A stretch of 34,834 nucleotides of DNA, from assembly GCA_947631395.1 (NCBI GenBank), contig CANRLF010000021.1:1-34834 (forward strand). Direction: 5' to 3'. Positions 7,072 to 34,173 of this stretch are shown here, piece after piece; the stretch's first letter is position 1; each line of letters begins with the position of its first letter. This stretch comes from an uncultured Oscillospiraceae bacterium (GTDB taxonomy: Bacteria > Bacillota > Clostridia > Oscillospirales > Oscillospiraceae). Made by a program: the position numbers and the translations under genes. The notes under the pieces are model-generated. The model did no database searches. It saw only the letters and a program-made list of their open reading frames with translations, and was not told the DNA's origin.

Positions 7072-7192
7072 TGTCGAAAAAGGCCTGACGGCCTTTTCCG
7101 ACAGAGATACGCGTGGACCCGGGATTTGAAATCGGAATTTCAAATCCCGGGTCCTGCTGTCAAATTTCCGAGGCACATGTCCTTGGAAATTT
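7072..7192 (+). repeat. Structured interspersed repeat, copy A (three hairpins)
   Basis: Hairpin 1: 7072-7085 with 7090-7103 (arm TGTCGAAAAAGGCC, one mismatch). Hairpin 2: 7115-7132 with 7137-7154, 18 bp perfect, loop CGGA. The linker CTGCTGTCA follows. The third hairpin, equivalent to hairpin 4 of the other copies, is 7162-7173 with 7181-7192 (arm AAATTTCCGAGG, one G-U pair), loop CACATGT. Hairpin 3 of copies B and C is absent here. Hairpin 2 is identical to that of copy C except for one loop base. The element lies directly after the GH105 stop; hairpin 1 may serve as its terminator. Confidence 0.8.
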
Positions 7193-7281
7193 TGATTATG
7201 TCCAAATTCTATTTTGTGTTCCTGTTCAAAATCGTGCGTAAGCGTACCTGATGAGCGATAGATTTCTTCACGATCGTGTGC

Positions 7282-7287
7282 TATAAT
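7282..7287 (+). promoter_or_regulatory. Possible -10 box of the C39-like gene
   Basis: A perfect TATAAT lies 46 nt before the start of the AT-rich gene. The hexamer 17 nt upstream does not resemble a -35 box, so the promoter is only tentative. A nearby dyad (ATCGTGCG at 7232-7239 and CGATCGTG at 7271-7278) could be a regulatory site. Confidence 0.45.
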
Positions 7288-7333
7288 TTCTGCGTCGTAA
7301 AAAAAGATAGATTTTAGAGGTTGAAATGTATCT

Positions 7334-8134
7334 ATGAAGTATATGACGTTCAATTCATCATGTTCTTATGCGGGGATCGCAAATCTTTTGTCGTTCTATG
7401 GGATAGATACCGAGGACAGAACGATCGCGCTTGAGATGGGACTGCCGTTTTTGTTTGACTACGAGGATGGATGTTATTTATCGGGGCCAATGCTTCAGGG
7501 CGCAAAATGGTTCAATCTCTATTTAAAGCCTATCGGTTATACCATGACGGAAAAAGAGGTGGATAAAGAACAACTTTGCGATCATCTTCGTGATTTACAG
7601 TATGCCATGATGGGCATTTATGTAAGCGAGAGAAATAAACACGCTGTTGTATACACAGGGATCAAAGACGGCAAATTCTGTATGCTCAATAACAAATGGG
7701 AGCAGTCTGATGAGCCTGATACGCTGTTGTTTTCAGAACAGGAGCTTTTGCGGCGAGTCGATGAAAAAGTCATGGTGGCCGTTTTGAACAAGTCCGCTTG
7801 TGAAACCGTTAAAGCTGAGTGGATGGCAAAGCACTCTATAGCTGTCCTTCAGTCGTTGGCGAAAGAAATTGCCGACTTCTGTTCACGGGAAAGATCCTCA
7901 ATGGATATTCGGTCGTCTATGAAAACTCTGTTCCGCGCAATTCTGCTTGATGGGATTACAATGCTGGATCTGATTGGGGAAACTCAGATCAGTCAAAAGC
8001 TGAAAATCGTGCAAGGTCAATTTATGAACGCCGTAAAGGAAAACAAACCCATACAGCTCGACCAACGTCTTGATATGGAGCTGTTAAATTCTGCTATTAC
8101 AGAATATATCGACTTAATTCGCGTTCATGCGTAA
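7334..8134 (+). CDS. AT-rich orphan, C39/papain-like cysteine peptidase-like protein
   Basis: This 266-residue protein is not confidently recognised. Its first half resembles C39-like or BtrH N-terminal domains: Cys10 in SSCSYAGIANLLSFYGID, where a helix follows the nucleophile, then His103 in KHAVVYTGIKDGKF and Asn119/Asn120 in MLNNKW, giving a plausible Cys-His-Asn set. Residues about 155-266 are helical and charged, with no membrane segment or signal peptide. Codon use is clearly richer in A and T than in all neighbours, which suggests horizontal acquisition. The best ribosome site, AGAGG at 7316-7320, is 13 nt from this ATG and nearer an ATG at 7326 that opens only three codons. There are no same-strand partner genes. 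A protease, acyltransferase or toxin-like role is speculative. Confidence 0.65.
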   Translation: MKYMTFNSSCSYAGIANLLSFYGIDTEDRTIALEMGLPFLFDYEDGCYLSGPMLQGAKWFNLYLKPIGYTMTEKEVDKEQLCDHLRDLQYAMMGIYVSERNKHAVVYTGIKDGKFCMLNNKWEQSDEPDTLLFSEQELLRRVDEKVMVAVLNKSACETVKAEWMAKHSIAVLQSLAKEIADFCSRERSSMDIRSSMKTLFRAILLDGITMLDLIGETQISQKLKIVQGQFMNAVKENKPIQLDQRLDMELLNSAITEYIDLIRVHA

Positions 8135-8311
8135 ACGATGTATGTATTGGGTATTTCGCAAAACCTTTTATCATGTAAACCCGGCTTCATCGCACAGGGG
8201 TGGCATGGTATTATACGCGCCGTTGAATAAACATTCATCCCAGCCGTGGGTCCGATACTCCGGGAGCACAAAATAGAGGGAGCTTGATTAGTTGCGCTGA
8301 GGAGAGGCGGG

Positions 8312-8629
8312 TCAGAATATGCCCTTATTGTACTTTTTCTGTGTCGAAACGAGAAGTACTGTTCCGATTATAAGTCCCGCGAAGAGCAGGGCTATGGAGG
8401 CGATGAGGAGAGGGGGCGAGGTGCCGAAAAGAGCCGTGACGCCGCTCAGGAGGGGGCCCAGGGACATAACGAGAAGGGCCCTTCCGAAGGATTTACCGTA
8501 GGCGGACTTATCCGTGACGTTTTTTTGATGGTAGTCGTGTATAAGCTCAGTCCTGCCCCGGTATATCTCCACACCGAACCCGGCAAGAAGCGCCGCGCCA
8601 AGGAACATTATTATAGCGTAGATCGCCAT
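8312..8629 (-). CDS. Small membrane protein, DUF3784-like
   Basis: This 105-residue protein has three predicted membrane segments (about residues 3-22, 48-67 and 74-95). A polar loop after the first contains YRGRTELIHDYHQKNV and DKSAYGKSFG, which I recognise as typical of DUF3784 membrane proteins of Firmicutes. The function is unknown. A strong ribosome site (AAGGAGGG) and a well-formed promoter (8658-8686) support expression as a single gene. It is divergent from queH, and no functional link to its neighbours is evident. Confidence 0.75.
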   Translation of the reverse strand: MAIYAIIMFLGAALLAGFGVEIYRGRTELIHDYHQKNVTDKSAYGKSFGRALLVMSLGPLLSGVTALFGTSPPLLIASIALLFAGLIIGTVLLVSTQKKYNKGIF

Positions 8630-8657
8630 GACAGATCCCTCCTTCCGTTACGGCATT

Positions 8658-8686
8658 ATTATACAGCGCCCGGCGGGGGAGGTCAA
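8658..8686 (-). promoter_or_regulatory. Sigma-A promoter of the DUF3784-like gene
   Basis: On the minus strand TTGACC (8681-8686) and TATAAT (8658-8663) are separated by 17 nt. Confidence 0.8.
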
Positions 8687-8704
8687 CGGGTTTTCGGGGG
8701 GTGC

Positions 8705-8733
8705 TTGCGTTTTTGGGGATGGGGGAGTAAAAT
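8705..8733 (+). promoter_or_regulatory. Probable promoter of queH
   Basis: TTGCGT (8705-8710) and TAAAAT (8728-8733) are separated by 17 nt, 27 nt before the queH start codon. Confidence 0.6.
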
Positions 8734-8760
8734 GTGGGTATTGGAAACGGAGGGGAGAGG

Positions 8761-9357
8761 ATGAGGGTGGATTTTAATAAGATGTTTGAGGAGCTGACGG
8801 AGGGGCTTGGGGGGAGAAGGCCGAGGCTGCTGTTGCACTCCTGCTGCGCGCCGTGCACAAGCGCGGTGCTGGAGAGGGTGCACCCGTTTTTTGACGTGAC
8901 GCTATACTATTTCAACCCCAACACCCACCCCGCGGAGGAGTATGAGAAGCGGGGGGCGGAGCTGCCGAAGCTGTTGCGGGCAGGGGGATATGAGGACGTG
9001 GAGATAATATGGGGGGAATACGACCCTATGGTCTTTTTTGACGCCGTCAAGGGGCTGGAGGGGGAGCCCGAGGGCGGGGCCCGGTGCGAGAGGTGCTTCG
9101 ACACGCGACTTTCCGGTACGGCGGCGAAGGCGCGGGAGCTGGGATTTGAATATTTCGGCACTACGCTCACGGTGAGCCCGCACAAGGACGCGGAGGTCAT
9201 AAACCGGGTGGGCCTGGGGCTTTCGGAGGAGTACGGCGTGGCCTGGCTTCCGGCGGATTTCAAAAAGCGGGACGGGTATCTGCGGTCCATAAGGCTGTCA
9301 CGGGAGTACGGCCTTTACAGGCAGTGCTATTGCGGGTGCGTGTTTTCAGCCGATTAA
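8761..9357 (+). CDS. queH: Epoxyqueuosine reductase QueH
   Basis: This 198-residue protein is the non-cobalamin epoxyqueuosine reductase of the DUF208 family, which carries out the last step of queuosine synthesis in tRNA anticodons. Conserved cysteines are present: HSCCAPC (Cys28, Cys29, Cys32), CERC (Cys109, Cys112) and CYCGC (Cys189, Cys191, Cys193); family members use such cysteines for an iron-sulfur/iron centre. GTTLTVSPHKD and FKKRDGY are also characteristic. The ATG at 8761 is chosen because GGAGGGGAGAGG is directly upstream; an in-frame GTG at 8734 has none. QueT follows behind a preQ1-type riboswitch, which fits a queuosine salvage operon. Confidence 0.95.
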   Translation: MRVDFNKMFEELTEGLGGRRPRLLLHSCCAPCTSAVLERVHPFFDVTLYYFNPNTHPAEEYEKRGAELPKLLRAGGYEDVEIIWGEYDPMVFFDAVKGLEGEPEGGARCERCFDTRLSGTAAKARELGFEYFGTTLTVSPHKDAEVINRVGLGLSEEYGVAWLPADFKKRDGYLRSIRLSREYGLYRQCYCGCVFSAD

Positions 9358-9417
9358 TGCAGAAATTTTATTAATTCTTTTTTCTACCCCTTGCGAAGTA
9401 TGTATTGTTATGGTAAT

Positions 9418-9492
9418 ATACCTCCGACAGGTTTCCACACCCTGTCCAGGCGCGGGTCGCACGCGTCTTCTAAAAACAAAAAATGGAGGTAT
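9418..9492 (+). promoter_or_regulatory. preQ1 riboswitch (class III-like) controlling queT
   Basis: P1 pairs 9418-9425 (ATACCTCC) with 9485-9492 (GGAGGTAT); the right arm contains the Shine-Dalgarno sequence of queT, so forming P1 hides it. P2 pairs 9426-9431 (GACAGG) with 9441-9446 (CCTGTC), closing a pyrimidine/A loop TTTCCACAC. A small GC hairpin (about 9449-9466) and an A-rich stretch (TAAAAACAAAAAAT) follow, suitable for a pseudoknot. The position before queT fits a preQ1 sensor. The loop resembles what I recall of the class III aptamer of Faecalibacterium-like bacteria; the class call is from memory. Translational control is inferred from the geometry. Confidence 0.6.
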
Positions 9493-9499
9493 CTTAACA

Positions 9500-10024
9500 A
9501 TGGATGGCAAATTTCCCGTTCGCAAGCTTGCCGTCGCCGCGGTAACGGCGGCGATGTACACGGCGCTGAGCTATGTGGCCTACACGCTCAACCTGGCCTT
9601 CGCGCCGGTGCAGTTCAGGCTTTCCGAGGCCCTGACGCTCCTGCCGTTCCTGTTCCCGGAGACGGCCTGGGGGCTGTTCGTGGGGTGTATACTTACTAAT
9701 CTGCTGAGCCAGTACGGCGCGGTGGACATAGTTTTCGGGTCCCTGGCGACGTTGATCGCCGGGCTCTGGACGGCCAGATGCCGCAACAAATGGACGGCGG
9801 CCGTCCCGCCGGTGGTCTGCAACGGGCTTATCGTCAGCGCGGTCATCGCCTACGCCCAGTCAGGCTTCGGGCCGGCCTTCATATCGGCGTGGGGCGTGAA
9901 TATTTTGACTGTTACCGGGGCCGAGGCGGTGCTGTGCTTCGCCCTTGGAGTTATACTCGTGACGGCCCTTGAAAAAAGCGGCGTCGCGAAAAGGCTGGGC
10001 GCCCGGGCGCCTGAGGCCGTATAG
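9500..10024 (+). CDS. queT: Queuosine precursor transporter QueT
   Basis: This 174-residue integral membrane protein belongs to the QueT (COG4708) family of ECF-type substrate-binding subunits that import preQ1 or other queuosine precursors. About five to six hydrophobic segments can be seen, and FAPVQFRLSEALTLLPFLFP is a family hallmark. The ATG at 9500 lies 10 nt after GGAGG, which is sequestered in the riboswitch stem. No terminator is visible between queH and queT, so both may be on one transcript with the riboswitch controlling queT translation. The energising ECF ATPases are not in this window. Confidence 0.93.
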   Translation: MDGKFPVRKLAVAAVTAAMYTALSYVAYTLNLAFAPVQFRLSEALTLLPFLFPETAWGLFVGCILTNLLSQYGAVDIVFGSLATLIAGLWTARCRNKWTAAVPPVVCNGLIVSAVIAYAQSGFGPAFISAWGVNILTVTGAEAVLCFALGVILVTALEKSGVAKRLGARAPEAV

Positions 10025-10050
10025 AAAAAGTTTCCTGTGAGGTGAGTGAG

Positions 10051-10920
10051 ATGAAGGTCAAAAAGGCTGTGATACCGGCGGCGGGGCTGGGCACAAGGAT
10101 GCTCCCCGCCACAAAGACCATACCCAAGGAGATGCTTCCCCTTGTGGACAAGCCGGTTTTGCAGTATATAATCGAGGAGGCGGTGGACTCCGGCATTGAG
10201 GATATACTTATCGTCACCAACCGCTCCAAGTCGGCTATGGACGACTATTTTGACTACTACCCGGAGCTGGAGCACCGGCTCATAAGCTCCGGAAAGGAGC
10301 ACATGGCCCATGAGCTCCGGGCCGTGGCGGATATGGCGAATTTCTTCTACGTCCGCCAGCGGGAGACGAGGGGCCTGGGCCACGCCATCGCCAGGGCCAG
10401 GCGCTTCATCGGCGACGAGCCCTTCGCGGTGCTGTTGGGCGACGACATAATGATGTCGAAAAAGCCGGTGCTGAAGCAGCTCATCGAGGCGGCGGAGAAG
10501 TATGACTGCTCCTGCGTGGGCGGACAGGCCGTATCCGACGAGGCGCTCCCGGCGTACTGCACCACGGACCTTGCACATGTGGAGGGGCGGGTCTACGACG
10601 TGAGGCACATCATAGAAAAGCCCCGGCCGGAGGAGGTCATGTCCAACTTCGCCATTTTGGGCCGGTATGTGCTGACGCCGGACATATTCGACATACTTGA
10701 CGCACTGCCCCCCGGGCGCAACGGCGAGATACAGCTGACCGACGGCCTGGCGGAGCTGTGCCACCGCCAGCGCATGGTATATGTGGACTTTGAGGGCCGG
10801 CGGTACGACACCGGCAGTCTGACGGGCTTTTTGGAGGCCACGCTGGACTTCGCGCTCCTCCATGAGGAGACGGGCCGGTGGCTGAGAGATTACATCAAGA
10901 ACAAGGCCGCGGAGCTCTGA
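10051..10920 (+). CDS. galU: UTP-glucose-1-phosphate uridylyltransferase
   Basis: This 289-residue nucleotidyltransferase makes UDP-glucose from UTP and glucose-1-phosphate for envelope glycans. The N-terminus VKKAVIPAAGLGTRMLPATK contains the nucleotide-binding GxGTRxxP motif and the conserved KEMLPLVDKP. VLLGDDIM carries the metal-binding aspartates, and later HIIEKPRPEE and the GEIQLTD motif are also typical. The ATG at 10051 is preferred over a GTG at 10042 because GAGGTGAG precedes it at good spacing. It is followed 24 nt later by a polysaccharide deacetylase and an ATP-grasp gene, consistent with a cell-surface polysaccharide unit. Confidence 0.95.
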   Translation: MKVKKAVIPAAGLGTRMLPATKTIPKEMLPLVDKPVLQYIIEEAVDSGIEDILIVTNRSKSAMDDYFDYYPELEHRLISSGKEHMAHELRAVADMANFFYVRQRETRGLGHAIARARRFIGDEPFAVLLGDDIMMSKKPVLKQLIEAAEKYDCSCVGGQAVSDEALPAYCTTDLAHVEGRVYDVRHIIEKPRPEEVMSNFAILGRYVLTPDIFDILDALPPGRNGEIQLTDGLAELCHRQRMVYVDFEGRRYDTGSLTGFLEATLDFALLHEETGRWLRDYIKNKAAEL

Positions 10921-10944
10921 GCTGACGGCGTTAGGAGGCGGACC

Positions 10945-12222
10945 ATGGGACTGTATGATCTGGCGCGGAAGGTGAACGCGAAGCGCAAGGCGCTGATAAA
11001 GGCCCGGGACGGCTTTGTGCCGTCGCCCGTGCGGCGGATCGGGCAGGCCTGCCCGCCACGAGACAGACGTCTCGTGGCAATGACCTTTGACGACGGACCG
11101 GACGCGCTGACGGTGGAGGGCCGGGACCGGGGGCTCACCCAGGTGATACTGGATGAGCTCAAGGAGTACGACGCCAAGGTGACATTTGACGTCATCGGCT
11201 CCACGGCGGACAACTACCCCGACGAAAAGGGGGAGCTGGGGACATTCATGTGGAGCGGCAGGGCATTTGACCACTACCCCAAATTCGGGGCAGACGGGCT
11301 GGCCGGGGCCAAGAACAGGCCGGAGCTAATAAGGGCGATACTTGACGGCGGCCACGAGATCTCAAACCACGGCTCCACCCACCGGCTGTTCGGACGGATG
11401 AGGGCCGTTTACGGCCAGAGGCACCATTTTGAGACCTTAGATCAGGTGGTGGGCGATCTTGAGGACCTGCACGGGTACCTTGAGCGGGAGTTCGGCTACA
11501 CCATGCGCCTTGGACGGCCCGCCCACTATATAGACAAGATCCCAGACGGGGCCAGCGCCTATGACGCGTACAGGATAATGGGCTACAACTATATGGCGGC
11601 GAGCTTCGACGGCGCCGGTTGGCAGCCGCTGGCCTCCTATGACCTGGAGGTCGACGCTATGGTAAAGCCACTGGAGAACGCCCTCCGGGCCGACCCGGAG
11701 AGCCTGAACGGGAAGATAATATTCCAAAAGGACGGCTCCAACATGGCAGAGCGCACACCCATCGCCGACGCCCTTCCGAGACAGCTCCGGCTCCTTCAGG
11801 ACGCGGGGTATCAGGTGGTGCCGGTGTCGGCGCTTTTGGAGGTGTCGCCCTTTGAGGATATGGACCCGGCCTCGGAGGAGGCGGAGAGCGTGAAATACCT
11901 GCTTTCCCGGGGCAGGGCGCCGGGATATAAGAACAACACCTTCCACGGCGAGAGGAACGTGACCGCCGGGGAGCTGTATATGATGCTCGCGGACCCCGAG
12001 GCACTGAGGGCCCGGAGGGCCATGAGCCCAAGGGAGCTCATGGCCGCCGCCGAGGCGGCATCCCCGGTGAAGCTGGGCGGCATCAGCGGCAGGGATCTGC
12101 TACGCGCGGCGGAGAAGCTTGGCGTCACGGTGGACGAGGGGCCGCTGAAGGACGCGGCCGCCGTCAGGCGCTCCGACGCCGCCGTATACGCGGCGCGGTT
12201 GCTGAGGGGCCTTTCGAAATGA
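10945..12222 (+). CDS. Polysaccharide deacetylase (NodB/CE4 domain) with C-terminal extension
   Basis: In this 425-residue protein the NodB deacetylase domain occupies about residues 42-300. Motif 1 TFDDGPD is at 47-53 and motif 2 HEISNHGSTH at 137-146, giving the metal site Asp/His/His; LGRPAHY probably represents motif 3. CE4 enzymes remove N- or O-acetyl groups from glycans. The family normally acts outside the cell, yet no signal peptide or membrane segment is visible. Residues about 345-425 are helical and end with SDAAVYAARLLRGL, somewhat like an SLH or other envelope-associated module. TAGGAGG precedes the ATG. Its stop overlaps the start of the ATP-grasp gene by 4 nt. Confidence 0.88.
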   Translation: MGLYDLARKVNAKRKALIKARDGFVPSPVRRIGQACPPRDRRLVAMTFDDGPDALTVEGRDRGLTQVILDELKEYDAKVTFDVIGSTADNYPDEKGELGTFMWSGRAFDHYPKFGADGLAGAKNRPELIRAILDGGHEISNHGSTHRLFGRMRAVYGQRHHFETLDQVVGDLEDLHGYLEREFGYTMRLGRPAHYIDKIPDGASAYDAYRIMGYNYMAASFDGAGWQPLASYDLEVDAMVKPLENALRADPESLNGKIIFQKDGSNMAERTPIADALPRQLRLLQDAGYQVVPVSALLEVSPFEDMDPASEEAESVKYLLSRGRAPGYKNNTFHGERNVTAGELYMMLADPEALRARRAMSPRELMAAAEAASPVKLGGISGRDLLRAAEKLGVTVDEGPLKDAAAVRRSDAAVYAARLLRGLSK

Positions 12223-13376
12223 AGCGGGCGATAGTCACGGACCTGCGCTACCGCATGGCCCTGGCTCCGGTCAGGACCCTGGCCGCCGCGGGCTATGAGG
12301 TCACGGGGGTCGAGACCGACGACATAGACCCAAAGATCGCCATCGGCTTTTACTCAAAGAGCCTTACGGACAAGGTATTTCTCCCGAAAGAGGGGTTCGG
12401 ACGGGCGCTTTTGGAGCTGTGCATTAAAAAGGGCGGCAAAAAGCCGGTGCTGGTGCCGGTGGGAAGGGCGGCCATCGACGCCTGCCGGAGGGTCCCGGAG
12501 CTGGCCGACGCCGCGGACTTCATAGTCCCGTCCGGCGCGGCCATGGAGCTTTCCGACGACAAGTGGCGGCTCAAGTGCCTTGCCGATAAGCTGGGCGTAC
12601 CCACGCCGGCCACCACGGCGCTGTCGGAGCACAGGGACATTGAGGAGCTGGCCGGGAGCGCCAAGTATCCGGCCTTTGTTAAATTCCGCAACGGGGAGCT
12701 CATGGGCCTCAAGCCCGCGGAGCGTTACCGCATCGTGGCCGGGCCCGAGGAGCTTTTACGGGTATATCCGCTTATGGCCGCCCGGGACCCGGATCCCATT
12801 GTGCAGGAGCGGGTCACGGGCCGGGACGTGGGTATAGCCTGCGTCACGGACAGGAACGCGGAGCTTGTGGACTACATCTGCTATGAGTCGCTGAGGGAGT
12901 TTCCCGCCTCCGGCGGGCCCACATGCCTTGCCAGGACCGTCAGCTCACCGGCGATGGTCCGGTACGCCAGGAGGCTTTTAAAGGCCCTGGACTTTACGGG
13001 CATATCCATGCTGGACTTCAAGGGCAGTATAGAGGAGCCGGAGCTGTTGGAGCTCAATCCCCGGGTGTGGGGCAGCGCAAATATTTGCGACACCGCCGGT
13101 TCCACGCTGTTTTTGAGCTACGCCAGGGCCGCCGCCGGGGAGGAGCTGCCTCCGGCGGGGCCGGAGCTTTCATACCGGGAGGGCGTGACCATGCGCTTCT
13201 CCCCGCAAAACGCCGCGTCCTTCATATCCCGCCTGAGAGCCGGAGCGCCACTGCTCTCAACAGCCGTGGAGTACATCCGCACGGCCCTTGACAGGTCCGT
13301 TAAGGACGGCTTCAATATCCCCGGCGACCGCGGGCCGTACAGACGGTATATTCTAAACCTTCTCTCCGGAAAATGA
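12219..13376 (+). CDS. ATP-grasp domain ligase
   Basis: This 385-residue ATP-grasp enzyme has a Rossmann-like pre-ATP-grasp domain (residues 1-105), an ATP-binding region with KYPAFVKFRNGE and IVQERVTGRDVGIACV, and a catalytic core with LDFKGSIEEPELLELNPRVW, where ELNPR supplies the Mg-binding Glu and Asn. ATP-grasp ligases join a carboxylate to an amine or similar nucleophile through an acyl-phosphate. Pairing by 4-nt overlap with a polysaccharide deacetylase suggests that one enzyme exposes an amine that the other acylates, but this is speculation. The stop codon sits exactly in the loop of the terminator 13361-13395. Confidence 0.85.
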   Translation: MKRAIVTDLRYRMALAPVRTLAAAGYEVTGVETDDIDPKIAIGFYSKSLTDKVFLPKEGFGRALLELCIKKGGKKPVLVPVGRAAIDACRRVPELADAADFIVPSGAAMELSDDKWRLKCLADKLGVPTPATTALSEHRDIEELAGSAKYPAFVKFRNGELMGLKPAERYRIVAGPEELLRVYPLMAARDPDPIVQERVTGRDVGIACVTDRNAELVDYICYESLREFPASGGPTCLARTVSSPAMVRYARRLLKALDFTGISMLDFKGSIEEPELLELNPRVWGSANICDTAGSTLFLSYARAAAGEELPPAGPELSYREGVTMRFSPQNAASFISRLRAGAPLLSTAVEYIRTALDRSVKDGFNIPGDRGPYRRYILNLLSGK

Positions 13377-13424: not shown

Positions 13425-13432
13425 ACGAATTA

Positions 13433-26450: not shown

Positions 26451-26478
26451 AAACGGACCGGAAATTTCCGGTCCGTTT
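26451..26478 (+). terminator. 28-nt perfect palindrome after the DUF1624 gene
   Basis: AAACGGACCGGAAATTTCCGGTCCGTTT read inward from both ends forms a perfect palindrome (arm AAACGGACCGGAAA). An A-rich tract lies before it and T residues end it, so it can work as a terminator. An identical 28-nt copy lies at 26684-26711. Confidence 0.7.
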
Positions 26479-26483
26479 GAGAC

Positions 26484-26655
26484 TGTCGAAAAAGCCCTGA
26501 CGGGCTTTTTCCGACAAGGGGAACGTGCGGGCAATTTTCTCCGAATTTTGCGAAATTCAGAGAAAATTGCCCTGCTGTCGCCCTGCGCGCGCCCCGAAGG
26601 GGCACACTTGGGCGACAAAAGGGATTTTTTCCGATGCACATGTCGTCGGAAAAAA
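26484..26655 (+). repeat. Structured interspersed repeat, copy B (four hairpins)
   Basis: Hairpin 1: 26484-26497 with 26502-26516, arm TGTCGAAAAAGCCC. Hairpin 2: 26529-26548 with 26553-26572, 19 of 20 bp paired, sequence unrelated to copies A and C although size and loop length match. Hairpin 3: TGTCGCCC 26576-26583 with GGGCGACA 26610-26617, enclosing GCCCC/GGGGC (26591-26603). Hairpin 4: 26625-26636 with 26644-26655, loop CACATGT. Linkers ACGTGCGG, CTGCTGTC, GGCACACTTG and GACAAAAGGGA are shared with copy C. It lies between convergent genes and is flanked by identical palindromes. Confidence 0.82.
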
Positions 26656-26683
26656 TATAAAATTTGAGTTTTTTGACAAGATG

Positions 26684-26711
26684 AAACGGACCGGAAATTT
26701 CCGGTCCGTTT
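26684..26711 (-). terminator. Second copy of the 28-nt palindrome, after ybaB
   Basis: Identical to 26451-26478 and 205 nt away. It lies 20 nt beyond the ybaB stop on the minus strand, where it can serve as the ybaB terminator. Confidence 0.7.
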
Positions 26712-27106: not shown

Positions 27107-28789
27107 TTATTTGAATTTGACGATACCCTCAAATTTTTTCAGCTCCTCCAGCCTGTCGCGGCCCGGCTCGGCGGGGGCCGACTCCGGCATACCCTCGGCG
27201 ACGCTGACGGCGAGGCTCCTGCCGAGTCTGGCGGTGGCGGCCTGGGCCACGGCCGTTTTCACGGCGGCCGAGTCCACCATCATCTTCACGAAGGCGTTCT
27301 TCGCGTGGAGGATAAGGCCGCCGCCCATGACCTCCGGCACCAGGTTGTCGCGGTTTGAAAGGAAGGTGTAGGCCACGCCGTCTATCTTCCCGTTGCAGGC
27401 CCCCAGCACGTCGCCCCACCAGTCACCACCGGACGCCGGGGCGGGGGACCTCGCGGGGACATCCTTTATCTCCGGCCGCTCCGGCGGCTCCGGCTTGGAG
27501 ACCGCCGACTGGGGCGGGAGCTCCGGCTCGACCGGCCCCTCCGGTGGGGCGTCCGCGTCCTCCCACGGGGGAGGGCCGTCGTCGGCGGATGTTGGGCTGA
27601 CAGGCGGTTCCGGTGCCCGGACGGGTTCGACTGGCGCGGAGGGCTCCGGAACTGTGTTCGCCGTCGCCGCCGGGGCGGGGTCGTAGCCCTCAGGCGTCCG
27701 GTATGAGCCCGCGAGCCTTCCGGAGAGCTTCACAAGGCATATCTCCGCCCGGACACGCTTGTCCGAGGCGTCGCGCATACCCTCAACGGCCTCCTGGAGC
27801 GTTTCGGACGCCGCCAGCAGCCGCCCGGTGTCGATGCCGCCCGACAGCTCCGAGAGCCTCCTGGCGCCGATGGCGCCGGACAGCATGGCTCGGCTCCCCC
27901 GTGGGGCTACCCGGACCATCAGCATATCCCGGACCAGGCTGAGCAGATTTCCCAAAAGGGCGGCGGGCTCCGCCCCGTCAAAATACGCCCTGTCGAAGAG
28001 CTCCAGCGCCCCGGCGGCGTCGTCTTTACGAAGGGCCTCCCAGAGCTTTGCCGTGTTCTCCGCGCCCATAAGACCAACGGACCGCAATACCGCCTCCTCG
28101 TCCACCGTGTCGGAGCTCACGCACTGGTCAAGGAGGGACAGGGCGTCGCGCATGGACCCGTCGGCCAGCCTTGCCAATAGGGCCGCCGCGCCGTCGGTGA
28201 GGCCGAGCTTTTCCTGATCCGCCACAAATCTCAGGCGCTTTTCGATGTTCTCCGGCATTATCCGGTGGAAGGAGAAGTGCTGACACCGGGAGAGGATGGT
28301 GGCCGGTACCTTCCGGAGCTCCGTGGTGGCGAGGATGAACACCAGATGCTCCGGCGGCTCCTCCAGTATCTTCAAAAGGGCGTTGAAGGCCGGTGTAGAC
28401 AGCATGTGTACCTCGTCGATGATGTACACGCGCTTTTTCGACTGGGCGGGAGAGTATATGGCCTCCTCCCTGATGGCCCTGATGTTGTCCACGCCGTTAT
28501 TTGACGCCGCGTCTATCTCCGCCACGTCCAAAATAGCCCCGGACTCGATGCCCCTGCAGGAGTCGCACTCGTTGCACGGGTCGCCGTTCACCGGGTGCTC
28601 GCAGTTCAGGGCCCTGGCGAGTATCTTGGCGCAGGTGGTCTTGCCCGTGCCGCGCGTCCCCACGAACAGATAGGCGTGGGAGGTCCGCCCGGAGGCCACC
28701 TGCCGGCGCAGGGTCTCGGTGACATGCTCCTGCCCGACCACGTCCTCAAAGGTCCGGGGCCGGTATTTGCGGTACAGAGCCTGATACAT
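27107..28789 (-). CDS. dnaX: DNA polymerase III subunits gamma/tau
   Basis: This 560-residue clamp-loader ATPase starts MYQALYRKYRPRTFEDVVGQ. Walker A is GTRGTGKT (44-51), the zinc module has Cys63, Cys72, Cys75 and Cys78, and the DEAD-like box is IIDEVHML (123-130). LSRCQHFSFHRI is sensor 1/arginine-finger territory. Domain III follows, then a long Pro/Glu/Ala-rich linker (about 385-465) and a tau-like C-terminal domain. The frame stays open upstream for about 64 codons, but that stretch lies in the ffs RNA gene and its terminator. The ATG at 28789, with GGGAGGG upstream, is therefore the start. Confidence 0.97.
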   Translation of the reverse strand: MYQALYRKYRPRTFEDVVGQEHVTETLRRQVASGRTSHAYLFVGTRGTGKTTCAKILARALNCEHPVNGDPCNECDSCRGIESGAILDVAEIDAASNNGVDNIRAIREEAIYSPAQSKKRVYIIDEVHMLSTPAFNALLKILEEPPEHLVFILATTELRKVPATILSRCQHFSFHRIMPENIEKRLRFVADQEKLGLTDGAAALLARLADGSMRDALSLLDQCVSSDTVDEEAVLRSVGLMGAENTAKLWEALRKDDAAGALELFDRAYFDGAEPAALLGNLLSLVRDMLMVRVAPRGSRAMLSGAIGARRLSELSGGIDTGRLLAASETLQEAVEGMRDASDKRVRAEICLVKLSGRLAGSYRTPEGYDPAPAATANTVPEPSAPVEPVRAPEPPVSPTSADDGPPPWEDADAPPEGPVEPELPPQSAVSKPEPPERPEIKDVPARSPAPASGGDWWGDVLGACNGKIDGVAYTFLSNRDNLVPEVMGGGLILHAKNAFVKMMVDSAAVKTAVAQAATARLGRSLAVSVAEGMPESAPAEPGRDRLEELKKFEGIVKFK

Positions 28790-28807
28790 GTTATCCCTCC
28801 CGTTACC

Positions 28808-28834
28808 GAAAAAGCCCGGACTCCCCGGGCTTTT
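28808..28834 (-). terminator. Intrinsic terminator of the SRP RNA gene
   Basis: On the minus strand a GC hairpin (arm AAAAGCCCGG, loop GAGT region) ends in a T-run, directly after the SRP RNA closing stem and 20 nt before dnaX. Partial readthrough could feed dnaX. Confidence 0.85.
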
Positions 28835-28840
28835 CCAATA

Positions 28841-29150
28841 GGCGCTATTGGGCAATGGGGGACCGCGAACCTGCCTTTGGCCAGTACGATATACCCGGTA
28901 CGCCAGGGTCCGACTCAGAGCCGGCAGCCTCGCGGCACACGCCGGGTTCCGCTTAATGCTGCTCGGTTCCCCGCCTGACATGGTTCACGGGCCGACGTTG
29001 CGTGAGACCGACTCATCAACGCCGTCCCCTGACGGCAGACGGCACATCGCATGACCGGGGGCAGGGATTCATCCCCGCTGTAGCGGCTTGCGGGTTACAG
29101 GGCACCGCTATCTCCCCAACTATCGCAGTCCCCCATCGCGCAATAACGCC
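28841..29150 (-). ncRNA. ffs: Signal recognition particle RNA, large bacterial type
   Basis: This is a 310-nt RNA of the Bacillus type with an Alu domain. The 5' end (complement of 29150) and 3' end (complement of 28841) pair over more than 20 nt (GGCGTTATTG with CAATAGCGCC, then GATGGGGGAC with GTCCCCCATT). Near the 5' end the Alu-domain segments GGGGAGATAGCGGTGCCCTG and TAACCCGCAAGCCGCT match the Bacillus scRNA closely. The S domain is recognisable from GTGAACCATGTCAGG, the GGAA tetraloop and GAGCAGCATTAAGCGGAACC, where Ffh binds. It pairs with Ffh to target membrane proteins. Promoter and terminator bracket it exactly. Confidence 0.95.
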
Positions 29151-29155
29151 TTATT

Positions 29156-29184
29156 ATTATACACCATATGTGGAGAAATAGCAA
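29156..29184 (-). promoter_or_regulatory. Promoter of ffs
   Basis: On the minus strand TTGCTA (29179-29184) and TATAAT (29156-29161) are separated by 17 nt; the RNA 5' end follows about 6 nt later. Confidence 0.8.
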
Positions 29185-29488
29185 CAAAATTTTGAGGGGG
29201 GGACTCGTCCCCGCCGTGCGGGTTGCCCCTCCTCTCTGAGGAGGGGGTGGGGGGAGGAGTCTGGGAGTACGGACTCCCCTCAGTCTCGCTGCGCTCGACA
29301 GCTCCCCTCAGAGAGGGGAGCCTAATTTAAAAGGTTTGCGGCTTCGCCGCATAATTATTCGCGCCGAAGGCGCAACCTTTAACTTCTTAACCTCCCCGAC
29401 GTTCGGGGAGGTGGCCCCGCGGGGCCGGTAGGGTCGAGGCCGAAGTATTTGCGCACGCCTACACCCTCGATCCCTCAGTCGCCTGCGG

Positions 29489-29546
29489 GCGACAGCTCCC
29501 CTTACGAAGGGGGAGCTTAAGAGAACAAGGATGCGCCTTGCGGCGC
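29489..29546 (+). repeat. 58-nt direct repeat, unit 1
   Basis: Identical to 29701-29758 (offset 212 nt). It contains the hairpin AGCTCCCC/GGGGGAGCT and ends with a GCGCC/GGCGC hairpin. Confidence 0.9.
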
Positions 29547-29700
29547 AAATAAATATGCGGCGAAGCCGCAAACCGCTTATAGAAGTCCCCTCCTCGTAGG
29601 AGGGGGGTAGGGGGGAAGCGAGGCCGAAGGGATTTGCCAGGGCCCGGAAATAGAAAGGTGCGGCAAAGATCGATACCCTCGACCCTTCAGTCGCCTGATG

Positions 29701-29758
29701 GCGACAGCTCCCCTTACGAAGGGGGAGCTTAAGAGAACAAGGATGCGCCTTGCGGCGC
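29701..29758 (+). repeat. 58-nt direct repeat, unit 2
   Basis: Exact second copy of 29489-29546. Similarity continues past both ends (preceding CAGTCGCCTG, following TGCGGCGAAGCCGCAAACC), so the real unit is longer, about 100 nt. Confidence 0.9.
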
Positions 29759-29851
29759 GATTAAATGTGCGGCGAAGCCGCAAACCTTTTTTGGGGGCGG
29801 GTGGGTGGGAATTTAGATTAGCGCCGTGAGGCGCAACATTTTTTTGCGGGT

Positions 29852-29892
29852 GGAAAAAAACAAGCCCCGCCGTGCGGATCGCGCGGCGGGGG
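29852..29892 (-). terminator. Terminator of the rpsF-ssb-rpsR operon
   Basis: On the minus strand CCCCGCCG pairs with CGGCGGGG (29884-29891 with 29865-29872), followed by CTTG and a run of seven T. Confidence 0.9.
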
Positions 29893-29913
29893 GTCCTCTT
29901 TATCAAGGTGGGC

Positions 29914-30168
29914 TCAGTCGGTCACGTAGGGCAGGAGGGCGATTTGGCGCGCCTGCTTGATGGCGGTGGTGAGCTGACGCTGATGCATGGCGCAGGTACC
30001 GGTGGCGCGGCGGGGAAGGATCTTGCTGCGCTCGGAGAGGTACCGGCGGAGCTTGGCGGTGTCCTTGTAGTCGATATACTGGCACTTGTCCACGCAGAAC
30101 TGGCAGACCTTGCGGCGCTTGCGGGCCTGGGCGGGACGAGCGGGACGGGCTTCTCTCTCGTTAGTCAT
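29914..30168 (-). CDS. rpsR: 30S ribosomal protein S18
   Basis: This 84-residue protein shows the S18 hallmarks [20 protein letters not shown] and the C-terminal [19 protein letters not shown]. It binds 16S rRNA with S6 in the platform of the small subunit. A Cys cluster, [10 protein letters not shown], near the N-terminus could bind zinc, as in the Cys-containing (C+) versions of S18. AGGAGG lies 8 nt before the ATG. It is the last gene of the standard rpsF-ssb-rpsR operon. Confidence 0.97.
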
Positions 30169-30216
30169 TGTCTTAACCTCCTTTTTTAAGGGTTATTAAA
30201 GGGATGTCATTCATTT

Positions 30217-30741
30217 TCAGAAGGGCAGGTCGCCGTCGTCATCGGTGAGATCGGCGAAGTCGGAGCCGGTGGAGCCGTAGCTCCCCTGGCCGCCGTAGCT
30301 GCTGCCCTGAGCGTAGCCGGAGCCGTTGCCGTAGCTGCCGGAGTTACCGCCGTAGCTGCCCGTGGGGGCGGGCTCGGCGTAGGAGCGGTTGTAGCCGCCC
30401 TGCTGGCTGTCGCCGTCGCGTCTGGAGTCGCCGAAATAGATATTGTCGGCCACGACCTCGGCACTGCGGCGCCTGTTGCCCTCCTTGTCCTGCCACTCCC
30501 TGATCTGGAGACGGCCGGACACCACGGCCATACGGCCCTTGGCGAAATACTTGCTGACGAACTCGGCTGTGTTGCGCCAGGCCACGATGTCGATGAAATC
30601 GGTCTGGCGGTCGCCGTTCTCGTTGCGGCCAAAGTCCCTGTCAACAGCCAGGGAGAAGCTGGCCACGGGAACGCCGGCCTGAGTGCGCCGGAGCTCCGGG
30701 TCGCGGGTAAGACGGCCCATGAGGATGATGTGGTTCAGCAT
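30217..30741 (-). CDS. ssb: Single-stranded DNA-binding protein
   Basis: This 174-residue SSB has an OB-fold in residues about 1-110 (MLNHIILMGRLTRDPELR, FIDIVAWRNTAEFVSKYFAKG and GRLQIREWQDKEGNRR), a Gly/Ser/Tyr/Gln-rich low-complexity linker (about 115-160) and the conserved acidic tip ending DDDGDLPF, which recruits repair and replication partners. AAGGAGG is just upstream. Its place between rpsF and rpsR is the typical Firmicute arrangement and couples it to ribosomal protein expression. Confidence 0.98.
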   Translation of the reverse strand: MLNHIILMGRLTRDPELRRTQAGVPVASFSLAVDRDFGRNENGDRQTDFIDIVAWRNTAEFVSKYFAKGRMAVVSGRLQIREWQDKEGNRRRSAEVVADNIYFGDSRRDGDSQQGGYNRSYAEPAPTGSYGGNSGSYGNGSGYAQGSSYGGQGSYGSTGSDFADLTDDDGDLPF

Positions 30742-30753
30742 CTTCCTGCCTCC

Positions 30754-31050
30754 TTATTCCGGCCGAACGGTGACCAGAGCGCGCATGACGCCCTCAGTGA
30801 TGCCGAGCACGCGGTAGAGCTCCGCGGGGAACTCCGGGGCGGACTCGAACTTCACGAGCACATAATAGCCCTCGGGCTTGTCGTTGATGAGATAGGCGAG
30901 CTTCCTCTTTCCCCACTCCTCAACTTCGCCAAGGGTGCCGTTCTGCTCGACGAGGGTCTTGAACTTCTCCACGATGGCGGCGGTGTCCTCCTCGCTGAGG
31001 TCCGGGTCGATGATGTAAAGAAGCTCATACTTTTCCGTTGTCTTTGCCAT
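30754..31050 (-). CDS. rpsF: 30S ribosomal protein S6
   Basis: This 98-residue protein starts MAKTTEKYELLYIIDPDLSE, continues with GEVEEWGKRKLAYLINDKPEGYYVLVKFES and ends near MRALVTVRPE, all diagnostic of S6. It binds 16S rRNA as a dimer with S18. The start at 31050 is fixed by AAGGAGG about 9 nt upstream. It is the first gene of the operon with ssb and rpsR, transcribed from 31136-31163. Confidence 0.97.
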   Translation of the reverse strand: MAKTTEKYELLYIIDPDLSEEDTAAIVEKFKTLVEQNGTLGEVEEWGKRKLAYLINDKPEGYYVLVKFESAPEFPAELYRVLGITEGVMRALVTVRPE

Positions 31051-31077
31051 GTTTTTGCACCTCCTTTTGGACTTATG

Positions 31078-31128
31078 GCCTCCGGGCAATCGGAGGCAAG
31101 GTTAGAGCGCCCCGCTTATGGGGGCAAG
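31078..31128 (-). promoter_or_regulatory. Leader hairpins of the rpsF operon
   Basis: Two hairpins stand in the leader: GCCCCC/GGGGC (about 31106-31128) and GCCTCCG/CGGAGGC (31078-31084 with 31091-31097, containing CCG). Many rpsF leaders carry an S6:S18-binding structure with a CCG element, so autoregulation is plausible. The match to that motif is not verified. Confidence 0.4.
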
Positions 31129-31135
31129 CCTTTAA

Positions 31136-31163
31136 ATTATACATGATTTTCCGATATTGTCAA
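31136..31163 (-). promoter_or_regulatory. Promoter of rpsF-ssb-rpsR
   Basis: On the minus strand a perfect TTGACA (31158-31163) and a perfect TATAAT (31136-31141) are separated by 16 nt. Confidence 0.88.
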
Positions 31164-31216
31164 GGGTAAATTCCCGTAAATTAATAATAACTCCCTCAAA
31201 TTTGACCTTTATTATG

Positions 31217-31245
31217 TTGCTTTTATCGGCTTTCACTGGTATAAT
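31217..31245 (+). promoter_or_regulatory. Promoter of tldD-tldE
   Basis: TTGCTT (31217-31222), a 17-nt spacer with an extended -10 (TGG), and a perfect TATAAT (31240-31245). Confidence 0.8.
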
Positions 31246-31277
31246 TGTCGCAACTGATTTTTCAAAGGAGGTCCAGT

Positions 31278-32708
31278 ATGAAATTACGCGACAGCGTGTA
31301 TCTGGAAAAAAAGCGGCCGCTTTTTGAAAAGCTCCTTGGGGAGCTTTTGGCAAAATACCCCTTCGCATCTATTTTGGCACAGGACGCGGCGGAGAAGTCG
31401 TGCAGGGTATCCCGCAGGCTCACGAACGTGTCCGCCGGGGGGACATTTTCCGCCCGGGGCTTTGTGGTGAAGGTATATGACGGGAGCCACTGGTCGGAGC
31501 ACTCCTTCAACGAGATCTCCGAGGATCTGCTCCCCGGGATACTCGGCGAGGTGGAGGCCACGGCGGCGATGTCGGAGGCGGTCCTGCCGGAGGGCGTAAA
31601 GGAGCGGGTCTACTCCGCCCCCGGAGCCGGGAAGCTCACCTTCAGCGGAAGTACCGATTACGAGGTGGACCCGGACGGGCTGGGGGACGAGGAGATAGTC
31701 GCAAGGCTCACGGCCATCCGCGACAGGGGGCTGGCCTGCTCCGACAGGCTCATCGACTGCCAGGCCAGCGTGACATGGAACAAGAGCCACAAGCTGTATC
31801 TGGCCCCGGACAGGGACCTTACACAGAACGTCATGTGGACAACGGGCTCGGTGGTGGCCATCGCCAGCCGCGGCCAGGAGATAAAGTTCAGCCACAAGGG
31901 CTACTCCGTCCTCGGCGGCGCGGAGCTCATGGAGGACATGGGCGGCGAGGTGGAAAAGACCGCCGCCACCGTGCTGGAGCTCCTTGAGAGCGAGCCGCTG
32001 ACTCCCGGCGAGTATGAGTGCGTCTGCACCCCGGAGGTGACGGGCATGATCGTCCACGAGGCCTTCGGCCACGGCGTGGAGATGGACATGTTCGTGAAAA
32101 AGCGGGCCCTGGCGGAAAAATACGTGGGCGAGTATGTGGCAAGCCCCCTGGTGACAATGCACGACGGGGCGTCGGTGGTGCCGGAGACGGGCAGCTACTT
32201 CTTCGATGACGAGGGCACCATGGCCCACGACACCGTTATAATCGAAAAGGGCGTACTGAAGCGGGGCATATCCGACTACCTCTCCGCCATGACCCTGGGC
32301 ACCGAGCCCACGGGCAACGGGAGAAGGGAGAGTTACCGCCGGAAGGCGTACACCCGCATGACCAACACATATTTCGAGCCGGGCACGGACAGCGTGGAGG
32401 ACATGATCGCCTCCGTCAAGGACGGCCTTCTGCTCTGCGAGCCCTCCAGCGGCATGGAGGACCCGAAAAACTGGGGCATCCAGTGCATGGTCAGCTACGC
32501 CCGGGAGATAAAGGACGGCAAGCTCACGGGACGCGTATTCTCGCCCATCGTGCTCACCGGGTACGTGCCGGACCTTTTAAAGTCCATCACCATGATGAGC
32601 GGCAAGCTGGAGCTTGGCGGCGGCGGAATGTGCGGCAAGGGCTATAAGGAGTGGGTCAAGGTATCCGACGGCGGCCCGTGGATAAAGGCCCGGATAAGGC
32701 TTGGTTAA
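31278..32708 (+). CDS. tldD: Metalloprotease TldD
   Basis: This 476-residue protein is the catalytic subunit of the TldD/TldE metalloprotease, which cuts unfolded peptides one or a few residues at a time; in some bacteria it matures modified peptides or clears antitoxins. The zinc motif is HEAFGH (260-265) in VHEAFGHGVEMD. A late cysteine in GGGGMCGKGY may be the third zinc ligand. AAAGGAGG lies upstream of the ATG. It is followed 12 nt later by its partner. No precursor peptide gene was found nearby, so a general proteolytic role is more likely. Confidence 0.95.
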   Translation: MKLRDSVYLEKKRPLFEKLLGELLAKYPFASILAQDAAEKSCRVSRRLTNVSAGGTFSARGFVVKVYDGSHWSEHSFNEISEDLLPGILGEVEATAAMSEAVLPEGVKERVYSAPGAGKLTFSGSTDYEVDPDGLGDEEIVARLTAIRDRGLACSDRLIDCQASVTWNKSHKLYLAPDRDLTQNVMWTTGSVVAIASRGQEIKFSHKGYSVLGGAELMEDMGGEVEKTAATVLELLESEPLTPGEYECVCTPEVTGMIVHEAFGHGVEMDMFVKKRALAEKYVGEYVASPLVTMHDGASVVPETGSYFFDDEGTMAHDTVIIEKGVLKRGISDYLSAMTLGTEPTGNGRRESYRRKAYTRMTNTYFEPGTDSVEDMIASVKDGLLLCEPSSGMEDPKNWGIQCMVSYAREIKDGKLTGRVFSPIVLTGYVPDLLKSITMMSGKLELGGGGMCGKGYKEWVKVSDGGPWIKARIRLG

Positions 32709-32720
32709 GGAGGCGGACTT

Positions 32721-33995
32721 ATGATAAACAGGATAATCGGGGCCCTGGGGGCCGAGGGTATAGATACGTGGGCGATAACCGAGAGGACGTCCCACTCCTG
32801 CGAGACATTTTTCGTGCGGAGGAACATGGACTTAAAGCGCCGCACGAGCCTTACGGATTACTCAGTCACGGTATACAGGGAGCTTGACCGCGACGGCGCA
32901 AAGCTCCTGGGCTCCTCCTCCGTGCCCGTGTACCCGGGGATGGACGTGGAGGAGGTCCGGGCGGCCCTACGGGAGGCGTATTTCGCCGCCTCCGTGGCGG
33001 GGAACCAGTACTATGAGCTCATAGAGGGCGCCGGGGAGGACAAGGTCCCCTCCGCCAGCGCCTTTGCCAAAATGTCCGTGGAGGAGGCGGCCAGGGCCGT
33101 GGGCGAGGCCCTTTTCGCCCCGGATACGGGGGACGACGTGTTCATAAACTCCGCTGAGATATTCGCCGTGAAGCGGTCCACACGGGTCGTAAACTCCCGG
33201 GGCGTGGACGTGAGCTGGGACACCTGCGAGGTACGGGGCGAGTTCGTCACCCAGTGCCCGGCGCCCCAGGACGTGGAGATATACCACAGCTTCGCCTACG
33301 CCGAGCCCGACGCCGACGCCCTCAGCGCCAAGGTGGAGGAGGCCCTGCGCCAGACCCGGGACCGGGCCGCGGCCAAGGAGCCGCCGAAGGCCGGCACATA
33401 CACGGTCATACTTTCAGGCGACAATATGCGGGAGCTCTTTGACTACTATGTAAGCCGCTCCGCCGCCGCCGCGGTGTACCAGCACTACTCAGATTACGCG
33501 GTGGGCAAGAACGTCCAGGGCCAGGACGTCACCGGCGATAAGCTGACCATCGACCTTACGGACGGCGAGCCCTACGACGCCGAGGGAATAAGGCTCACTG
33601 ACCGTCCGCTTCTGGAGGACGGCGTCGTCAGGACCATCCACGGCGGGGCGAGATTTTCAAGCTACCTGGGCATCGAGCCCACGGGCAGCTTCGGCGGGAT
33701 CCGCGTCCGGCCGGGGACCGCGCCGCTCTCGGAGCTCATGTCCCGGCCGCACCTGCGGGTGGTGACCTTCTCGGACTTCCAGATGAACGCCATGTCCGGC
33801 CACTTCGCCGGTGAGATACGCCTGGGATACCTCTTCGACGGCGAAAAGACCGTCCCCGTCACCGGCGGCTCCATCAACGGCAGTATCCTTGAGGCCCAGA
33901 GGACGATGAGGCTATCAAGCGAGCTATACGTGACTCCGACCTACACCGGCCCCCTGGCCGTCGCCCTGGACGAGGTGCAGGTGGCGGGAACCTAA
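32721..33995 (+). CDS. tldE: TldE/PmbA-type partner of TldD
   Basis: This 424-residue protein of the PmbA/TldE branch of the TldD superfamily lacks the HExxxH zinc motif, as expected for the non-catalytic subunit. Conserved stretches are VNSRGVDVSW, the segment around YVSRSAAAAVYQHYSDYAVG, and the C-terminal GEIRLGYLFDGEKTVPVTGGSINGS, read in two parts. It forms a heterodimer with TldD, making a cavity for extended peptides. TAAGGAGG precedes the ATG. Structured repeat copy C begins 4 nt after its stop. Confidence 0.93.
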   Translation: MINRIIGALGAEGIDTWAITERTSHSCETFFVRRNMDLKRRTSLTDYSVTVYRELDRDGAKLLGSSSVPVYPGMDVEEVRAALREAYFAASVAGNQYYELIEGAGEDKVPSASAFAKMSVEEAARAVGEALFAPDTGDDVFINSAEIFAVKRSTRVVNSRGVDVSWDTCEVRGEFVTQCPAPQDVEIYHSFAYAEPDADALSAKVEEALRQTRDRAAAKEPPKAGTYTVILSGDNMRELFDYYVSRSAAAAVYQHYSDYAVGKNVQGQDVTGDKLTIDLTDGEPYDAEGIRLTDRPLLEDGVVRTIHGGARFSSYLGIEPTGSFGGIRVRPGTAPLSELMSRPHLRVVTFSDFQMNAMSGHFAGEIRLGYLFDGEKTVPVTGGSINGSILEAQRTMRLSSELYVTPTYTGPLAVALDEVQVAGT

Positions 33996-33999
33996 TATT

Positions 34000-34173
34000 T
34001 GTCCGGGAAAGGCCGTTGGGCCTTTCCCGGACAAGGGGGGAGACGTGCGGACCCGGGATTTGAAATTGGAATTTCAAATCCCGGGTCCTGCTGTCACGCC
34101 GCGCGCGCCGCCGGAGGCGGCACACTTGCGTGACAAAAGGGATTTTTTCCGAGGCGCATGTCCTCGGAAAAAA
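34000..34173 (+). repeat. Structured interspersed repeat, copy C (four hairpins)
   Basis: Hairpin 1: 34000-34014 with 34019-34033, perfect, arm TGTCCGGGAAAGGCC. Hairpin 2: 34049-34066 with 34071-34088, 18 bp perfect, same as copy A. Hairpin 3: TGTCACGC 34092-34099 with GCGTGACA 34128-34135, enclosing GCCGCC/GGCGGC (34107-34121). Hairpin 4: 34143-34154 with 34162-34173, perfect 12 bp, loop CGCATGT. Same orientation as A and B, again straight after a plus-strand gene. Confidence 0.82.

Follow-up and report, generated by a model that had tools for sequence, protein, structure and literature searches.

IS1272, a member of the IS1182 family of insertion sequences (IS), targets palindromes, and in the model proposed for it one pathway duplicates the target stem-loop and another replaces it; new insertions were reported without target duplications, the stem-loop having been replaced, and the four gene-proximal insertions lie immediately downstream of genes (PMC5678879). 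Here we describe a repeated element, widespread in gut bacteria, that belongs to the miniature inverted-repeat transposable elements (MITEs) and is related to IS1182, but is unusual in its many hairpins and in a covariation that looks DNA-type. Three copies, A, B and C, lie in a stretch of 34,834 nucleotides from an uncultured Oscillospiraceae bacterium (assembly GCA_947631395.1, contig CANRLF010000021.1, positions 1 to 34,834 of the forward strand), referred to below as the window.

Like IS1272, the element has palindromic targets and a position behind genes, and its source genome holds an IS1182 transposase gene between like ends. However, it carries no transposase, its four or five hairpins are not seen in the IS of that genome (locus L036), and it mostly duplicates the target hairpin, whereas new IS1272 insertions were reported to replace it. 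Prokaryotic MITEs (PMC10969869) are similarly short, present in many copies, bounded by terminal repeats and target duplications, and share their ends with an IS of the same genome. The duplications of one of them, QMITE2, measure 7-9 bp, and SPRITE repeats are terminator-like (PMC10969869). In contrast, the duplications of the present element are 17-39 nt long and themselves palindromes, and a structured core found across the order and DNA-type compensation set it further apart. REP, RUP and SPRITE repeats are also intergenic and palindromic, but the element differs from them in its fixed order of four or five hairpins with linkers and in its IS1182-type ends.

Two further systems bear on the comparison. 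In integron attC sites the arms vary while pairing is kept, as it is the folded single-strand DNA that is recognised; varying arms with kept pairing are found here too, a likeness that is an analogy only, but the element has DDE-type ends and occurs as dispersed single copies. Class C group II introns target terminators, and no group II intron family of Rfam matched the window at gathering score.

Complete copies and their ends

Copy B is a complete element (26479-26683; Table 1). It consists of a 5' end, hairpin 1 (HP1; the others are numbered likewise), the linker ACGTGCGG, HP2, which is a long palindrome, CTGCTGTC, HP3, ACAAAAGGG, HP4 with its 7-nt loop, and a 3' end. The 28-nt palindrome AAACGGACCGGAAATTTCCGGTCCGTTT flanks it on either side, and the left palindrome carries a minus-strand terminator-like flag. 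At copies A and C neither a 3' end of the copy-B type nor a duplicated flank was seen. Across the family the element is about 125-205 nt long.

The 15-nt motif of the 3' end occurs in the source genome at 11 exact and 11 one-mismatch sites, against 0 for the reversed control, and at least one of the 22 sites (L042) is intragenic and likely a chance match. At one site (L036) the motif forms the border of a complete insertion sequence, CAGCTTGTCAAAAAAG ... TTTTTTGACAGACTG, outside which the palindrome GGGAATACTGTATGTATTCCC is duplicated. Its transposase matches the IS1182 model NF033551 of NCBIfam at 378.8 bits, above the curated cut-off of 270, and has the Pfam domains DDE_Tnp_1_6 and DUF772. 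By eye, the ends of the element, read in reverse, equal those of this IS at 15/15 and 12/15 bases. We examined 28 IS1182 loci of the bacterial family, several of them fragments and one (L277) the same IS as L036, and two more, L276 and L275, combine similar ends with flanking repeats, so that insertion at palindromes is seen at three loci. The flanks are palindromic repeats of 21-31 nt at L036 and L276 and a 17-nt repeat of one palindrome arm at L275; of the two further cases, the IS1182 of genome G014 is flanked by an exact palindrome of 31 nt and that of G098 by the 17 nt of one palindrome arm. No such flanking repeat was found at the remaining loci of the 28. Like IS1182 elements are present in three genomes.

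The repeats beside the element itself were judged against mismatched pairs of flanks. In a set of 35 copies from the source genome, the true flanks of 11 end-bearing copies outscore all 1190 mismatched pairs, while those of 23 copies do not. The flanks of L013 also outscore every mismatched pair; this is an end-less copy within a 53-nt direct repeat that has no simple hairpin and exceeds the other duplications in length. Both ends, assigned by regular expressions, were recognised in 53 of 166 genus-type copies. Of these 53, 37 are bordered by direct repeats of 17-39 nt that score above 13; among 1033 mismatched pairs, 13 marks the 99.5% point and 16 is the highest value. All but one of the 37 repeats (36/37) are palindromic, against 76 of 1000 random 28-mers. 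In other genera the repeats of 20 of 57 copies outscore every mismatched pair, and 18 are palindromic.

The sequence-only reading that first drew attention to these repeats had named a strong match to an IS-derived MITE as an outcome that would count against it. That outcome applies, since complete copies have IS1182-like ends and palindromic duplications. The element is short and multi-copy, its two-ended copies share terminal inverted repeats with an autonomous IS of the genome, and target site duplications accompany it within and outside the genus. IS1182-like inverted-repeat ends and a duplicated host palindrome therefore mark it as a mobile element of MITE type. From these comparisons we consider it very likely that the copies form a non-autonomous MITE-type family moved by IS1182-family transposases, which would act in trans, with a core kept as folded DNA and with end-less copies sitting at terminators.

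In the mechanism that we propose, an IS1182-family transposase would cut at the ends of about 15 nt (5' GAGACTGTCGAAAAA, 3' TTTTTTGACAAGCTG), and the element would be joined to the base of a host hairpin, itself a palindrome and mostly located 3' of a gene, the hairpin being copied on both sides. The core comprises four hairpins, or five in other genera as we read them. Later, a copy would lose its ends, and HP1 would take over from the gene's terminator or directly replace it, which would leave oriented copies at stop codons, as with A and C.

Related species differ at single genes. At the gene preceding copy B or copy C, relatives have, by eye, no copy, a remnant of HP4 (L250) or copies in opposite orientation (L237, L252, L253 and L258, the first with its own duplicated hairpin).

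Several observations weigh against the proposed MITE family and its IS1182 partner. Since the downstream gene often differs at the compared loci, none of them counts as an empty site in the strict sense, and a strictly empty one bearing the same hairpin was not encountered. One or both recognised ends are absent from 113 of the 166 genus-type copies, and in other genera the 3'-end pattern matched only 9 of 57 copies. The assembly holds only one copy of the L036-type IS. Across genomes IS1182 and the element are not one-to-one: G086, with the strongest IS1182 match, has no element match, and G150 has 18 element matches and no IS1182 match.

A repeat family with covarying stems

The sequence-only reading had described three copies of a structured repeat in which stems change on both sides with pairing kept, and had read this as selection on structure. 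The three copies lie where it placed them and the stem changes that it quoted for hairpins 1, 3 and 4 are correct. The first linker of copy A, however, is ACGCGTGG, not ACGTGCGG, and its HP3 is absent.

A DNA search of the source genome gave 66 matches, opposite-strand shadows included. Thirty-five further stretches were taken from the genome, and 35 full copies (33 distinct rows) were aligned, omitting seven partial, interrupted or deleted matches, copy A among them. In this alignment 98.4% of cells are paired and 29 of 48 consensus pairs show two-sided change. For the structure derived from the same alignment, the covariation score was reached by 0 of 500 shuffles, and pairing falls to 38-61% when the partner is slid by 1-3 columns. 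The covariation is real and far beyond chance, and selection for pairing is its likeliest cause. A model of the element, R1, has at least 77 matches in the genome among 150 scored of 1317 first-look candidates; the 51 strongest (E <= 1.1e-9) each mark a separate place, and among the other, weaker 26 are shadows that the palindromes cast on the opposite strand. With its further copies in relatives, this is a genuine repeat family.

Two types of HP3 and two of HP4 are found among the 35 copies in each of the four possible combinations, so copies probably recombine through their linkers. Linker-to-linker deletions were seen in copy A and at L041.

Several smaller points concern the same copies. 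The loop C(A/G)CATGT of HP4, taken from the window as constant, is so there, but 64 of 162 loops in the wider set are of a T..C type, 62 of them TACATGC. Genus-wide, the first and last loop bases are coupled (C..T in 96 and T..C in 64 of the 162, with 2 exceptions); read on the opposite strand, this would be a mismatch of A·G or G·A type. A pseudoknot between the linker ACGTGCG and the HP4 loop was dropped as a candidate; by eye it fits only CGCATGT loops (42 of 162). Assembly contigs end within the element at L037 and L039 (G000 C5 and C20), so that copy number is probably underestimated. In several copies (L021 3086-3224, L030 about 3060-3200, L102, L120 and L170) the HP3 loop contains a second repeat of about 100-150 nt (..TCGTCGCTGA..GCCGC..CTCCTCTCCCC..GGGGACCCC), a nested insertion from another family.

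Compensation without a wobble preference

Covariation is usually taken as proof of a functional RNA. Where pairing is selected in RNA, G-U intermediates should exceed A-C, whereas in DNA both are mismatches. Among 176 distinct genus-type elements, HP2 (126 unique hairpins) gave 24 G·T against 28 A·C distinct-context events, and HP1, HP2 and HP4 together gave 34 against 44 (p = 0.31), divided into 18 against 27 in copies with recognised ends and 16 against 18 in end-less copies. The signal recognition particle (SRP) RNA of the same genus (28 loci, 27 distinct), our control, gave 30 G-U against 3 A-C, counted per pair and mismatch type on a MAFFT/RNAalifold alignment, in which RNAalifold favours G-U. 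Counted in the same way, the 35 element copies gave 10 against 7 on the plus strand and 12 against 10 on the minus strand, and the SRP ratio differs from the 34 to 44 and the 10 to 7 of the element with Fisher p = 2e-6 and 0.02, respectively. The G-U excess in stem mismatches that we took as the mark of a structured RNA was not found. A filter of at least 80% pairing, which treats G·T and A·C alike, was applied in HP2 and in the mismatch-event and nearest-pair counts; HP2 parsing gave 124 parsed, 92 unique and 84 used hairpins, and since copies with decayed linkers cannot be parsed, HP2 pairing, event and nearest-pair counts are biased to well-kept copies.

Counts by cell lean the other way, with 38 G·U against 10 A·C on the minus strand, and HP1 and HP4 each contain a single A·C mismatch that has been inherited and that reads as G·T on the opposite strand. 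The minus-strand excess comes mostly from that one site in each hairpin, counted as a single event; a minus-strand RNA preference is excluded by the event counts only (12 against 10), not by the cell counts.

Covariation that lacks the G-U signature of RNA means that RNA tests alone are not decisive. The pattern suggests selection on DNA hairpins. The core is most likely kept as folded DNA, as a cruciform or as single-strand hairpins, because its arms compensate without RNA-type wobble, and the folded core is probably the structure used in transposition, which would give the hairpins their role in the element. It is possible, though we put this forward tentatively, that selection acts on the folded DNA, the hairpins forming a substrate whose shape is recognised either by an IS1182-type (DDE) transposase or by a factor of the host. 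The element would then spread from terminator to terminator, copying the host hairpin and in the end replacing it, and part of the terminators of this lineage would be domesticated mobile elements. As compensatory changes occur here without a wobble preference by events, a preference that the control RNA of the genus shows clearly, counting G·T against A·C could offer motif discovery a simple way to tell RNA from DNA folds.

The history of the compensation can be followed in nearest pairs of HP2, in which one-sided and two-sided differences stand at 64:23 at distance 1-2, then at 30:37 and 18:51, and at 6:16 at distance 11-16. Because this ratio falls with distance, compensation accumulates stepwise. 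Perfect stems could also arise without selection, if template switching during replication copied one arm on to the other. Such neutral correction fits stems that are well paired and wobble-free in end-less copies too (mean HP2 pairing 0.959, n=62, against 0.952, n=53, in two-ended copies); this equality also tells against our own account, in that transposition alone does not explain the pairing. However, duplicated host hairpins differ mainly one-sidedly, with 20 one-sided and 2 two-sided stem changes in 75 pairs, a set with looser cut-offs than the 37 of 53 above, in which chance pairs are possible, and a ratio that is, in fairness to neutral correction, not far from the 64 to 23 of the element at distance 1-2. 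Furthermore, mean identity across 172 copies is higher in linker 3 (0.87), which played no part in finding the copies, and in the 5' arms of HP4 (0.84) than in those of HP2 (0.43); the 0.82 of linker 1 is an overestimate, half of its bases being fixed by the search pattern. We consider neutral correction unlikely, and the data are most simply read as selection that acts on pairing in the DNA itself.

Position relative to genes

In the window all three copies follow plus-strand genes, as the sequence-only reading had noted, but in the wider set the arrangement depends on the class of copy. Genes were called by codon scoring, which supersedes a first count by longest open reading frames with pooled classes (tandem pairs: 8 same and 5 opposite in the source genome, 29 and 23 at named loci); the gene calling was home-made in both counts. 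The end-less class is not pure, since at least L312, L321 and L324 still have a duplicated hairpin and a 3' end that is mutated but can be recognised. The upstream gene is on the same strand in 43 of 50 end-less copies, 17 of 25 with a 5' end only, 4 of 6 with a 3' end only and 16 of 24 with both ends. End-less copies have a median gap of -3 nt by our start convention, that is, HP1 touches the stop codon, and two-ended copies with a same-strand upstream gene one of 37 nt. Between tandem genes, 18 end-less copies are co-oriented and 6 opposed, against 3 and 6 two-ended copies; convergent pairs surround 25 of 50 and 13 of 24, respectively. Copies of the A and C type thus have a defined position and orientation, and from its sequence and place HP1 may serve as a terminator. 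On the IS1272 model, the young class resembles the outcome of duplication, and the old class that of replacement, or else of a loss of the outer hairpin after which HP1 took its place.

The same-strand preference of the end-less copies would also be expected of a structured RNA, a 3'-untranslated-region element or a small RNA, whose fold is under selection and which recombination has spread, and such an RNA would further account for the strong covariation, the conservation of linker 3, the internal loop and the HP4 loop, and the G-U lean of minus-strand cells. Yet the events show no G-U excess, either overall or in the end-less copies, of the kind that SRP RNA shows; two-ended copies, in small numbers, have no same-strand preference in tandem pairs, and they sit behind a host hairpin at which transcription would probably stop. 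We regard an RNA of this kind as improbable. As an IS1182-related MITE, the family is a large natural data set on IS1182-type transposases that duplicate or replace hairpins behind genes, and on possible ways in which mobile DNA rewrites gene 3' ends in gut bacteria.

Distribution and known families

R1 matches were found in 31 of 34 genomes of the genus, with at least 40 in 19 of them and 0 to 15 in G001-G012; in 70 of 150 genomes and 57 of 106 genera of the family; and in 23 of 197 genomes of the order, 10 of these from five other families. These searches scored at most 80, 18 and 13 candidates per genome, respectively, and the copy counts include opposite-strand shadows. The layout HP3-linker-HP4 was recognised by eye, in some cases altered, in nine copies from four of the five other families. 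In copies from outside the genus, HP2 may be absent or of another kind, and the 3' end is often preceded by a fifth hairpin with the linker AACTCTGCGAGGC. The records with the HP4 motif, among the matches listed, are metagenome-assembled genomes of Oscillospiraceae and other clostridia, Intestinimonas, Pseudoflavonifractor gallinarum and rumen Ruminococcaceae. The same motif, searched as one pattern, also occurs in two viral-contig stretches (L221 and L222). No match to copy C, used as a single query, was found among 72,556 plasmid records.

The patchy spread of the core through the order, together with the many end-less copies, the few 3' ends in other genera (9/57) and the DNA-type pairing, would also suit a core that was an older mobile unit of its own, read as folded single-strand DNA by another enzyme, and that gained IS1182-type ends later. 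Palindromic duplications of the IS1182 habit, however, flank copies in other genera too (20/57), and we think this history rather unlikely.

Comparison of the whole window with Rfam at gathering score gave SRP RNA only, elsewhere than the copies. At relaxed thresholds, the best match among six loci of other genera was naRNA4, at 37.5 bits against a gathering score of 59.5 (E 0.0012), at L079 98-182 on the minus strand of the copy. The sequence-only reading knew of no described family with this architecture, and the open-access literature that we searched contained no description of the element either. We regard it as a new, order-wide family of multi-hairpin, palindrome-duplicating MITEs with DNA-type covariation.

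Copies and other repeats in the window

Table 1. Parts of the three element copies in the window
Feature	Position	Strand	Remark
Copy A HP1	7072..7103	+	core AAAAAGGCC..GGCCTTTT, terminator-like; 3 nt past stop codon of upstream gene (7066-7068)
Copy A linker 1	7109..7116	+	variant ACGCGTGG
Copy A HP2	7115..7154	+	palindrome of 40 nt
Copy A HP4	7162..7192	+	loop CACATGT; HP3 missing; by eye, flank not duplicated
Copy B left host palindrome	26451..26478	.	28 nt, duplicated
Copy B 5' end	26479..26493	+	GAGACTGTCGAAAAA, IS1182-type
Copy B HP1	26484..26516	+	
Copy B linker 1	26523..26530	+	ACGTGCGG
Copy B HP2	26529..26572	+	
Copy B HP3	26576..26617	+	internal loop CGCGC/CACAC
Copy B HP4	26624..26656	+	loop CACATGT
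Copy B 3' end	26669..26683	+	TTTTTTGACAAGATG, 1 mismatch against TTTTTTGACAAGCTG, IS1182-type
Copy B right host palindrome	26684..26711	.	28 nt, same as left
Copy C HP1	33999..34034	+	3 nt past stop codon (33993-33995)
Copy C linker 1	34043..34050	+	ACGTGCGG
Copy C HP2	34049..34088	+	
Copy C HP3	34092..34135	+	
Copy C HP4	34142..34174	+	loop CGCATGT

The window also holds another local repeat family, at 29289-29786, with 112-nt direct repeats that are 94% alike, a 30-nt unit CTGCGGGCGACAGCTCCCCT.. and inverted arms of 69-81 nt. These repeats adjoin the gene for the large SRP RNA (28863-29128, minus strand).

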